Shown piece by piece: positions 5,078 to 31,334 of a DNA stretch of 64,000 bases. The translations under genes and the position numbers were made by a program. The stretch covers positions 992,001-1,056,000 of the forward strand of contig NZ_RBII01000001.1 of NCBI RefSeq assembly GCF_003634015.1. The letters run 5' to 3'. Each line of letters opens with the position of its first letter. The first letter of the stretch is position 1. The notes under the pieces were generated by a model that searched no databases, was not told the origin of the DNA, and saw only the letters and a program-made list of their open reading frames with translations. This DNA comes from Litorimonas taeanensis. GTDB lineage: Bacteria; Pseudomonadota; Alphaproteobacteria; Caulobacterales; Maricaulaceae.

Positions 5078-5092
5078 GAACAACACTAGAAC
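5078..5092. promoter_or_regulatory. SOS box (alphaproteobacterial LexA operator) upstream of lexA
   Basis: Perfect GAAC-N7-GAAC: GAAC at 5078-5081, seven bases, GAAC at 5089-5092. This direct repeat is the known LexA operator of Alphaproteobacteria. It begins 9 bp after the trpC stop and ends 36 bp before the lexA ATG, as expected for LexA autoregulation. Confidence 0.9.
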
Positions 5093-5128: not shown

Positions 5129-5785
5129 ATGCTAACGCAAAAGCAAAAAGACTTGTTAATATTGATTGATGCACGAGTGAAAGCCGTCGGTGTCCCTCCC
5201 TCATATGACGAAATGAAAGACTCTTTAGGGTTAGCCAGCAAATCAGGTATTCATCGATTGATATCAGCGCTCGAAGAACGTGGGTTCATTCGTCGTCTCC
5301 CTAATAAAGCACGTGCCTTAGAAGTATTAAAGCTGCCCGAAGACATGCAAGACAAAGTCGTGTCCTTTACTAAGGAAAAGTCAGCGCCCCAACCCGCCAA
5401 TGACGGAACAGCAATCCCCTTTGTTGGTAAAATCGCCGCAGGTCTGCCCATTATGGCAATTGAGGATAGTTATAATACTATGGTGGTACCGCCTCATATG
5501 GCCGGCAATGGTGATCATTACGCCCTCGAAATTGAAGGGGAATCGATGAAAGATGCTGGCATTTTAGATGGCGATATTGTTGTCGTGAAAAAAGCCAACA
5601 CAGCCCGAAACAATCAAATTGTTGTCGCTCTCGTCGACCAAGATGAGGCAACCTTAAAGCGGTTATATAAATCCGGGCAAACTGTTGAACTCATTGCAGA
5701 AAACCCTGACTTTGAAACACAAATATATGGCCCCGACCGCGTTGAAATCCAAGGCGTTCTTGTTGGGTTATTACGCCAATATTGA
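5129..5785 (+). CDS. lexA: SOS repressor LexA
   Basis: Transcriptional repressor of the DNA-damage response that self-cleaves when stimulated by RecA filaments. The N-terminal winged helix spans about residues 1-65. The Ala104-Gly105 cleavage site sits in KIAAGLP, the catalytic Ser139 in GESMKD and the general base Lys177 in EATLKRLY, so all parts needed for autocleavage are present. The 218 residues and the long linker fit alphaproteobacterial LexA. The start follows GAGGTGG. A LexA box lies upstream, and a second perfect box lies before the microprotein gene at 30.4 kb. Confidence 0.97.
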   Translation: MLTQKQKDLLILIDARVKAVGVPPSYDEMKDSLGLASKSGIHRLISALEERGFIRRLPNKARALEVLKLPEDMQDKVVSFTKEKSAPQPANDGTAIPFVGKIAAGLPIMAIEDSYNTMVVPPHMAGNGDHYALEIEGESMKDAGILDGDIVVVKKANTARNNQIVVALVDQDEATLKRLYKSGQTVELIAENPDFETQIYGPDRVEIQGVLVGLLRQY

Positions 5786-29700: not shown

Positions 29701-30258
29701 GGCCTCAGTATGATGGCGTTGGATTTCAACATAGAGACGATTAGGAAAAAGCGCTCTAAGGTTATCTAACCATTTCTCAGCCTCAGCCTTTCGGTCATCC
29801 ACAATGAAACGATTCAAAACACCATCAGGCCCACCAGTCAATGCAATTACACCTTCGGTACGTCCTGCCAGCGCAGAGGCTTTCACATGTGGTACATCCG
29901 TTGGTTCCACGTCTAAAAAAGCCGAGGAAGAAAGCGCCATGAGATTCTCATAACCTTTCTCAGTTTGGGCCAGCAGAACTAATGTACCATCAGGATCGCG
30001 CCTTATTTGCCCGGGCTGTAACGGGAGGCCAATATCCATTGAGAGCGTTACGCCGATAATAGGCTGTAGGCCAAATCCGGCAAACGTGTCTGAAAATTCC
30101 AAAGCACCGCACATATTGTTAGTATCAGTGAGTGCTACTGCTGGAAAACGCCAGTCCGCACAACGTGCAGCAAGGGGCTTCATTTTAAGCGCGCCCTCTA
30201 ACATTGAGTATGGGGAACGCGTTCGAAGAGGAACGTAATCAAGTCGTCGAACTGACAT
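26800..30258 (-). CDS. dnaE: DNA polymerase III subunit alpha
   Basis: Replicative polymerase. From the ATG at 30258 it has 1152 residues, normal for DnaE1. The PHP domain comes first (YVPLRTRSPYSMLEG; the first metal-binding His of the E. coli domain, HSDYS, is Arg here). The polymerase palm follows, with GRGSGAGSVVAW and the catalytic Asp pair of PDFDIDFCQERR near residue 400. Then come the helix-hairpin-helix and the OB fold near 1000. The frame is open to 30453, but AAGGAGAG lies right before 30258 and the conserved N terminus begins there. The 31-codon SOS-linked gene lies 35 bp upstream on the same strand, so dnaE may also be read from that promoter. Confidence 0.97.
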   Translation of the reverse strand: MSVRRLDYVPLRTRSPYSMLEGALKMKPLAARCADWRFPAVALTDTNNMCGALEFSDTFAGFGLQPIIGVTLSMDIGLPLQPGQIRRDPDGTLVLLAQTEKGYENLMALSSSAFLDVEPTDVPHVKASALAGRTEGVIALTGGPDGVLNRFIVDDRKAEAEKWLDNLRALFPNRLYVEIQRHHTEAEEKAEPVLIDFAYEKGLPLVATNEPYYLDPEMHKAHDALLAISEGSYVLEKNRRKVTGHHYLKSPEQMIELFADLPEAIENTLIIAQRCAYRSEKRKPILPNFGDGSLSEADILAQKAKDGLRQRLLEVENAATEEAYFERLDFELGIIANMGFPGYFLIVADFIQWAKEQGIPVGPGRGSGAGSVVAWALTITDLDPLRYGLLFERFLNPERVSMPDFDIDFCQERRGEVIDYVRRKYGDGQVAQIITFGTLQARAVVRDVGRVMQMPLGQVDRLAKLVPSNPANPVTLAQAINMEPALQEARKAEPAVRNLLDTALQLEGLYRNASTHAAGVVIGDRPLQQLVPLYRDPRSDVPATQFTMKWAEKAGLVKFDFLGLKTLTVIDRCMKYLAKQGKSFDLSKVSTNTKEAYAPLSEALSAGVFQLESSGMRDVLRKMAPSSIEELTALISLYRPGPMKNIPDYVDRKFGRQEITYPHPKLEPILKETYGIIIYQEQVMEIAKVLSGFTLGDADLLRRAMGKKDQAEMDRQKSKFIDGAVQRDVDGRLAGEIFELVNEFAGYGFNKSHAAAYAMISFQTAYLKALYPVEFIAAIMSLDIANVEKLAQFYQEGNRMGIEIVSPCVNQSMADFDVADGKVLYALGALKNVGVDAMRHVVSVREQGGPFKDLYDFAHRVDMRLVNKRAIENLARSGAFDCLEPNRATVMASASILQDIGTLAARERASSQVSLFGDSVKMEDPDLCYAPSWGSIEQLNNELSAVGFYLGGHPLDEHAKKGALDKCTQAIDIDEKYARSGKECKMNLAGVVLRKQERLSKRGKKFAFVALSDPTGEYEVLFTEKVLMPNRDYLTPGNLIQIKAKAEGGDGEVRLFAEGITPFNAKPPETKIVGLDIRLRNASIETLDALEKLLDQLKNAPYQNSGYIQITAPLDDKREASWKLHGAWGVDPKIQKAIKANQSVEIIKEIAA

Positions 30259-30293
30259 AGCCTCTCCTTTTGGCTGAATATTTAGACCAAAAC

Positions 30294-30389
30294 TTAGCCG
30301 CCTAGTACCATCATCCACAGCGTCATCACGCCAACGAACCCTGCCAGAACTGCGCCAGAAAGCACATCCATTACGAGCTGTTTTGCCAT
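30294..30389 (-). CDS. SidA-like SOS-induced single-span membrane microprotein
   Basis: A 31-codon frame, ATG at 30387-30389 and TAA at 30294-30296. It begins MAKQLVMDVL, and residues 9-29 are nearly all hydrophobic (Leu, Val, Ala, Gly, Met, Phe, Trp), enough for one membrane helix; the C terminus is Gly-Gly. GGGG lies about six bases upstream of the ATG. The promoter 5' of it carries a perfect LexA box. Caulobacter SidA is a 29-residue inner-membrane protein, made in the SOS response, that blocks division by binding FtsW/FtsN; I recall its gene lying beside dnaE. Size, topology, control and place agree, but I could not compare sequences. Alternative: an unrelated small toxin-like or spurious frame. 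Confidence 0.7.
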   Translation of the reverse strand: MAKQLVMDVLSGAVLAGFVGVMTLWMMVLGG

Positions 30390-30414
30390 GTTTATCCCCA
30401 ATAAAACGGTTGAT

Positions 30415-30453
30415 GTTCTTATTTTGTTCTAATTCATTTCGCGGAAAAGTCAA
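30415..30453 (-). promoter_or_regulatory. SOS promoter: LexA box over the -10 element
   Basis: On the minus strand -35 TTGACT (30448-30453), 16-base spacer, -10 TAGAAC (30426-30431). The LexA box is GTTC-N7-GTTC on the + strand (GTTC at 30415-30418 and 30426-30429), i.e. GAAC-N7-GAAC toward the microgene. It overlaps the -10 element, so bound LexA would block RNA polymerase. The box ends 26 bp before the microgene ATG. Confidence 0.8.
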
Positions 30454-30629
30454 ACCCTTTCTGGGAATGAAGCCATATCAATGTGGATAAGTCGCTGAAT
30501 CCCATTTGCCCTATCGCAATATGATATCCGGCATGGCAGCTTCTTGGCTCAGCAGAAGTCGCAGCTAGTCACCTATATTTTAAGATATCAAATAAGCTAA
30601 TTAGAAACCAAAAGCTTTTCTGCCGTTTG
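30454..30629. other. Non-coding stretch between lolD and the SOS promoter
   Basis: No convincing gene. It contains TGTGGATAA at 30482-30490, a perfect match to the DnaA box on the minus strand, but one such match is expected by chance in about every 100 kb or so. A 5-bp inverted repeat (CTTCT/AGAAG, about 30540-30565) lacks a T run. No terminator for lolD could be recognised. Confidence 0.4.
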
Positions 30630-31334
30630 TTAAACGCGAGGGGGTACCTTTAACGGCACAACGAGACCGTCACGCACTGTGAAAACTCGGTCCATATATT
30701 GTGTTAGATCCATATTATGGGTCGCCACTAACGCCGAAACTCCCTCCATACGAGTTAGGTCAAACAGACTTTTGAAGACTGAGGAAGACGTCGCGGGGTC
30801 AAGGTTTCCAGTCGGTTCATCCGCCAACAAAATTTGAGGTTTATTGGCGAGTGCCCGTGCTATTGCAACCCTTTGCTGCTCGCCGCCTGACATCTCTGAA
30901 GGCTTATGGTGCATACGTGGCTCCAGCCCCATAACAGTCAATAGGCGCTGCGCTTCGATAAGGGATTGTTTTTCGGATTTCCCAGATATCATTTGCGGGA
31001 TGACGACATTTTCTTCTGCCGTAAACTCTTTTTGCAAATGGTGAAATTGATAGACAACACCAATCGTTTCTCGTCGTATTGCCGTACGCTTGTCGTCTGA
31101 TAGTTTCAAACATTCTCGGCCATTTATGTAGACCTCCCCCGCATTGGGCTTTTCTAACAACCCTGCTGCGTGAAGCAGCGTTGACTTACCCGACCCCGAC
31201 GGGCCGATAAGCCCTACCATTTCGCCTGGGAAAATATCAATATCCGCGCCCGCTAATACGGTCAAAGTCTTGGGCCCAGATTGATAAGAACGGTGAAGGT
31301 TTCGTACAGATAGAATAGGTCTTACGCTTTGCAT
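30630..31334 (-). CDS. lolD: Lipoprotein-releasing ABC transporter ATPase LolD
   Basis: ATPase that powers extraction of lipoproteins from the inner membrane. 234 residues: Walker A GPSGSGKS at 44-51, Q loop VYQFHHLQKEFTAEENV (a LolD-typical stretch), signature MSGGEQQRVAIARAL and Walker B ILLADEPTGNLD. It lies 9 bp after the permease gene, its partner. Confidence 0.95.
   Translation of the reverse strand: MQSVRPILSVRNLHRSYQSGPKTLTVLAGADIDIFPGEMVGLIGPSGSGKSTLLHAAGLLEKPNAGEVYINGRECLKLSDDKRTAIRRETIGVVYQFHHLQKEFTAEENVVIPQMISGKSEKQSLIEAQRLLTVMGLEPRMHHKPSEMSGGEQQRVAIARALANKPQILLADEPTGNLDPATSSSVFKSLFDLTRMEGVSALVATHNMDLTQYMDRVFTVRDGLVVPLKVPPRV

Follow-up and report, generated by a model that had tools for sequence, protein, structure and literature searches.

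A LexA-boxed microprotein gene upstream of dnaE in Litorimonas taeanensis is very probably a distant relative of Caulobacter sidA

The 64,000-nucleotide stretch of Litorimonas taeanensis DNA analysed here (the window) contains, just upstream of dnaE, a 31-codon gene which very probably is a distant relative of Caulobacter sidA. This kinship is suggested by a shared locus, a shared LexA box and intermediate sequences. The shared place upstream of dnaE, which the preliminary description of this DNA had not raised, is the strongest argument for it. We consider it likely that the gene represents a divergent branch of the SidA family and encodes a microprotein that is induced in the SOS response, spans the inner membrane once and delays septation; induction, topology, the FtsW/FtsN target and the division block are inferred by analogy.

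A 31-codon gene precedes dnaE

The features of the locus, and of the lexA region in the same window, are:

30448..30453, minus strand, -35 element TTGACT
30426..30431, minus strand, -10 element TAGAAC, overlapped by the LexA box (44 selected upstream regions viewed side by side)
30415..30429, minus strand, LexA box GAACAAAATAAGAAC
30394..30399, minus strand, Shine-Dalgarno-like GGGGAT
30294..30389, minus strand, sidA-like gene of 31 codons
26800..30258, minus strand, dnaE (DNA polymerase III alpha, DnaE1)
5078..5092, plus strand, LexA box GAACAACACTAGAAC before lexA, from a pattern scan
5129..5785, plus strand, lexA-like gene (named by reading the sequence), presumed repressor of the sidA-like promoter

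The sidA-like ORF encodes the peptide MAKQLVMDVLSGAVLAGFVGVMTLWMMVLGG. Its residues V9-L29 form a hydrophobic stretch of 21 residues with zero charges, taken as a single transmembrane helix on hydrophobicity only. In most relatives the aligned start corresponds to the ATG; an alternative TTG start lies four codons 5' of it. The ATG of dnaE, at 30258 on the same strand, is preceded by AGGAGAGG and lies 35 nt past the microprotein stop; a scan of the interval between the two genes found no terminator-like site. The 31-codon frame with its 21-residue hydrophobic core and the distance to dnaE are as the preliminary description had reported them. It had also cautioned that an over-extended dnaE call would swallow this region, and the dnaE frame does stay open across the microprotein gene. 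Since, in addition, the window protein had no match in NCBIfam or Pfam at a limit of E=10, NF033228 included, absence of the gene from annotations is plausible. The ORF at 30294-30389 is a real gene, as it is kept with an exact box before dnaE in 33 of 33 relatives and evolves under purifying selection.

The promoter carries a conserved LexA box

The TTGACT and TAGAAC elements are separated by 16 nt, with the GAAC-N7-GAAC box over the -10, exactly where they had been placed before. The ATG follows just downstream of the box as claimed, at a gap of 25 nt and not the 26 originally given. The Shine-Dalgarno-like GGGGAT has similar counterparts (GGGGATAA/GAGGATAA) in several relatives. A consensus promoter scan of 30200-30700 gave no hit; its rule requires a terminal T in the -10, and TAGAAC lacks this T.

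One GAAC-N7-GAAC box alone is weak evidence. The window holds five exact boxes where 1.57 are expected, a count attained by 2 of 100 shuffles, and the genome 64 against 106 for the reversed pattern. The box before the sidA-like gene is non-random because it is conserved among relatives: it is exact in all 40 distinct upstream regions from the window's family, which stem from 19 loci picked by peptide hits (L032-L050), from the window itself and from loci picked by DnaE. A TTGAC hexamer lies at a near-constant distance from the box in 29 of these 40 regions, ending 18-22 nt 5' of it (about 3% expected). LexA control of the microprotein gene, as initially proposed, is supported at the sequence level by this conserved box over the -10. 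A second exact GAAC-N7-GAAC, at 30336-30350 on the plus strand within the microprotein gene, is missing in the close relative L032 and therefore probably arose by chance.

The window also contains, 25 kb away from the sidA-like gene, the lexA-like gene with a LexA box in front of it. We inspected 42 stretches out of the genome's 64 exact boxes, reading gene names from the sequence by eye. Exact boxes precede recA (two boxes), ssb with divergent uvrA, lexA and rmuC, and are also found divergent from comM and from a DinB/ImuB-like polymerase. Many other boxes adjoin genes that have no obvious connection with DNA damage; the number of boxes is therefore no proof in itself. Boxes at L429, L421, L428 and L009 of this genome lie near genes for a DinB-like polymerase, a DNA cytosine methyltransferase, a GIY-YIG-like protein and a DnaB-like helicase, and some of these may be due to chance.

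The microprotein is conserved and under purifying selection

NCBI taxonomy places Litorimonas and Robiginitomaculum in Robiginitomaculaceae, Maricaulales. At E<=1, tblastn with the peptide gave matches in 41 of 100 relatives, and the 30 places found at E<0.01 (own included) all belong to the window's family (f1), none with an internal stop. Independently, 80 named loci were fetched by DnaE similarity. The ORF and the exact box precede dnaE in all 33 DnaE-fetched loci L051-L083, from Hellea, Litorimonas, Algimonas, Robiginitomaculum and relatives. Both are also present in L097 and L103 of this clade; L084 and L085, from the same clade, are missing the dnaE start. Wider sampling of the order placed the ORF before dnaE in 15/15 further f1 genomes (box exact in 10, near-match in 5), in 23/23 of the SidA-model family f3 (exact in 19, near-match in 4) and in 16/16 of family f5 (exact in 15). 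The f3 count leaves out G093, which was omitted by the script and whose place agrees in the NF033228 search.

The microprotein evolves under purifying selection. Over 33 ORFs, diversity at the three codon positions was 0.32/0.15/0.58 and pooled pN was 0.25 against a pS of 0.74, and the mean dN/dS was 0.18 over the 73 pairs whose pS was below 0.6. This selection analysis started from 34 loci and dropped L049, which the ORF motif did not catch. The preliminary description had named a conserved frame with synonymous-biased substitutions as a check on the gene, and both features are seen here.

Family f2 of the same order seems to be without the microprotein gene. The ORF was found in 0 of 5 f2 dnaE upstream regions read, and across 61 f2 genomes the best profile match was no better than E=0.0056. 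The five upstream regions (L181-L185) have neither an exact LexA box nor the microprotein. Alignment A1 gave f2 matches at E<=0.1 in 13 of the 61 genomes; 13 of the 14 places were rejected, lying inside frames of 237-469 codons, and the 14th is a 25-codon frame in G628. In family f4, the ORF was not seen in 5 of 8 genomes read.

Intermediate sequences link the microprotein to SidA

The window protein does not reach the 35-bit cut-off of NF033228, and its own genome has no match to this model at E<=0.1. Within the order, NF033228 passed its cut-off in 14 of 120 genomes, each of them from f3 and each with the match just upstream of dnaE; it also did so in 1 of 14 named control genomes, presumably Caulobacter vibrioides. 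We used G197 as a stand-in for this species on the basis of MipZ identity and FtsW numbering: 277 of 278 MipZ residues are identical to PDB 2xj4, whose source organism we take to be C. crescentus, and FtsW has A31, F145 and A246 at the published numbers. The 29-residue ORF before dnaE in G197 scores 72.3 bits against the cut-off of 35 and has an exact box in front. In the Caulobacter group, too, SidA sits right before dnaE. G073, which has a dnaE-linked SidA copy, also contains a second SidA-like stretch (G073:C3:315099-315185) of 28.5 bits to NF033228, below the cut-off, in a 132-codon frame.

Direct comparison of the window peptide with f3 SidA gave no significant kinship, and this link was rejected. 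The f3 SidA profile placed 0 of 19 window-type peptides above their own shuffles, and 168 of 200 shuffles of the window peptide scored equally or better; the reciprocal window-type profile placed 2 of 14 f3 SidA peptides above shuffles, and profile comparison of the window group (A2) with the SidA group (A3) gave 36%. The f1b group, consisting of genera of the window's family found by position and hydrophobicity, provides an intermediate. Profile comparison gave 97.5% for A2 against f1b (A4) and 93.6% for A4 against A3, with gapless links. The f1b profile beat shuffles for 19/19 window-type and 11/14 SidA peptides, and the f3 SidA profile did so for 5/10 f1b peptides. In alignment A1, 12 of 34 rows match NF033228 at E<=1, and 60 of 61 genomes of the genus of G157 match A1 at the same limit.

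A profile of 14 alphaproteobacterial ORFs, selected by box, position and hydrophobicity only, recognised 11/14 SidA, 13/19 window-type, 8/10 f1b and 8/11 f5 peptides, against at most 4/14, 2/19, 2/10 and 1/11, respectively, for six null sets of membrane ORFs. One of 200 shuffles of the window peptide was as good against this profile. The test is cleaner than the earlier shuffle test, whose distant set was partly chosen by profile matches. A second-order profile of 24 peptides, picked by matches to the A5 profile, recognised 8/14 SidA, 13/19 window-type, 8/10 f1b and 3/11 f5 peptides, and 1 of 500 shuffles matched the window peptide score. Family f5, hardly recognised by profiles built from the order's other families, is joined to them mainly by locus. 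In alignment A6 the peptides share a common register, with column 8 acidic and column 18 Phe.

The preliminary description had proposed a counterpart of SidA or a convergent division inhibitor, with alignment to SidA as the check. The alignment stays at shuffle level when made directly, and the link appears through f1b and the box-selected profiles; what stands of the proposed counterpart is the shared dnaE locus, the box and the intermediates. Homology is favoured over convergence, through intermediates only.

Alternative explanations

That the short membrane ORFs found at this boxed promoter are of separate origin, with only hydrophobicity in common, would fit the shuffle-level score of the SidA profile against the window peptide and the poor recognition of f5 by other families' profiles. 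The gapless links through f1b, a group from the window's own family, argue against such convergence, as does the box-selected profile, which recognises both SidA and the window group where the six null membrane-ORF sets do not, and we regard it as quite improbable. Many ORFs as short as 31 codons exist, and a chance frame between a LexA-controlled dnaE promoter and dnaE might therefore be considered; conservation in 33 of 33 loci and the dN/dS of 0.18, which we read as refuting chance, make its probability negligible.

Alternatively, the gene may be real and act differently. Its position 35 nt before dnaE, on the same strand and with no terminator-like site between, would suit a leader peptide or translational coupler for dnaE, in which the act of translation and not the peptide matters. 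Selection on the amino acids speaks against this, the spacing between the gene and dnaE is far from constant (35 nt here, about 325 in L173), and the Caulobacter-group gene at the same place matches a curated division inhibitor; we hold a leader or coupler to be very doubtful. TisB of E. coli is a very short hydrophobic SOS peptide. DinQ, from the same species, is another such peptide (PMC3567139), and an SOS membrane peptide of other action, for example a depolarising toxin like these two, could have been recruited to the locus. Set against this are the sequence links to SidA via intermediates and the common register of the acidic column 8 and Phe column 18, and we judge a toxin-type peptide unlikely.

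Proposed function as an SOS division inhibitor

Under the preferred reading, a SidA-type division inhibitor, LexA would occupy the box over the -10 in the undamaged cell and block the promoter. Upon damage, RecA-driven self-cleavage of LexA would free the promoter and the 31-residue peptide would be made. It is predicted to insert in the inner membrane with its short N-terminus (MAKQ) in the cytoplasm and, by analogy with Caulobacter SidA, to bind FtsW and/or FtsN. The FtsW-FtsI-FtsN septal synthase would thereby be kept inactive until repair ends and then be released. A gap of just 35 nt, in which no terminator-like site was found, suggests co-transcription of the microprotein gene with dnaE, which is probably transcribed through from the sidA-like promoter; this would couple a division brake to the supply of replicative polymerase.

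SidA (29 residues) and the window protein (31) both have one hydrophobic stretch, an acidic residue before the helix and a mid-helix Phe, and both genes lie just upstream of dnaE under GAAC-N7-GAAC control. They differ in that the window protein has 17% identity to the G197 SidA row in A6, the SidA Trp (FVWMM) is at column 20 and not at 25, and the Gly-Gly C-terminus is not common to both. Substitution at FtsW A31 suppresses SidA, as do FtsW F145L or A246T. FtsW of the window genome keeps F145 and A246, and its position 31 is Leu where G197 has Ala. In Caulobacter, lexA deletion causes filamentation because of sidA (PMC12700426), which is CCNA_02004 (PMC10769358). DidA of Caulobacter resembles the SidA type in being a small damage-induced membrane division inhibitor that acts on the FtsW-FtsI-FtsN complex, and differs in its 71 residues, SOS-independent induction and binding to FtsN; it is set apart here by description (PMC4211646).

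The family alignment (acidic residue 8, Phe18, Trp25) suggests residues to mutate for FtsW/FtsN contact. For lineages distant from Caulobacter, the gene is a concrete and testable candidate for an SOS checkpoint on division. Its locus is predictable and may be skipped by gene callers, and the question arises why a division brake is tied to dnaE. YneA of Bacillus and SosA of Staphylococcus come from a different phylum and are larger proteins. Both are SOS-induced division inhibitors, compared here by description, and YneA is reported to interact with FtsW (PMC13396833, PMC6851548).

Distribution across Alphaproteobacteria

We lean, with some reservation, towards the reading that SidA is one branch of an ancient class-wide family, in which a LexA-controlled membrane microprotein heads a sidA-dnaE1 unit in many Alphaproteobacteria, including a second order with genomes of 7-9 Mb. 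This reading is bold and well supported. If true, SidA is no Caulobacter speciality, one promoter sets division brake and replicative polymerase together, and many alphaproteobacteria without a known SOS division inhibitor would have one. Literature searches for SidA in bacteria other than Caulobacter, or for sidA together with dnaE, found nothing relevant and no map of the sidA locus in the available parts of the sources, among which SidA's original 2011 description was not covered. The box before dnaE may have been noted in earlier studies of LexA regulons in alphaproteobacteria.

From a class sample of 143 genomes, 123 dnaE upstream regions were read; in the other 20 the dnaE match was absent or partial, or the region was already in hand or omitted. 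An exact forward box occurs in 15 of the 123 regions, and 14 of these 15 hold a hydrophobic ORF of 20-50 codons whose start lies 15-125 nt from the box's first base; in regions lacking a box, the same holds for 4.7% of 1687 control positions. When the first Caulobacterales profile was run against 3244 frames, the best 11 matches were all upstream of dnaE and on its strand.

Searching 385 class genomes, A1 matched 34 at E<=0.1, with dnaE alongside in 7 of the 26 loci examined (L235-L260; L242 is from the window's order). In the same genomes A6 matched 24 at E<=0.01; dnaE follows directly at 19 of 25 places, and the box is exact at 18 of the 19; five of the 25 are from the window's order and five others are the source or equal of A6 rows. 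In the second order, that of G573, A5 found matches in 47 of 150 genomes at E<=0.05. Among the best 30 places, 26 lie directly before dnaE and 24 of these carry an exact box; another two have a box with no dnaE in reach. This recruitment is partly self-fulfilling, since A5 contains three rows of that kind; position and box played no part in the search.

Carriers outside the window's order include MAGs labelled Rhodoplanes, Xanthobacteraceae, Hyphomicrobiales and Alphaproteobacteria (L109, L111-L114, L124). No exact box was found in the DnaE-fetched loci of Halocynthiibacter, Rhodobacteraceae, Sphingomonadales, Thalassospira, Roseomonas, Siccirubricoccus and Commensalibacter. One A1 row has a weak Pfam DAGK match, and the unlinked matches L241 and L250 resemble what we take to be the C-terminal helix of diacylglycerol kinase. 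L479, L483 and L505 contain a SidA-like ORF with an exact box and no dnaE within the fetched stretch, and are possible relocated copies.
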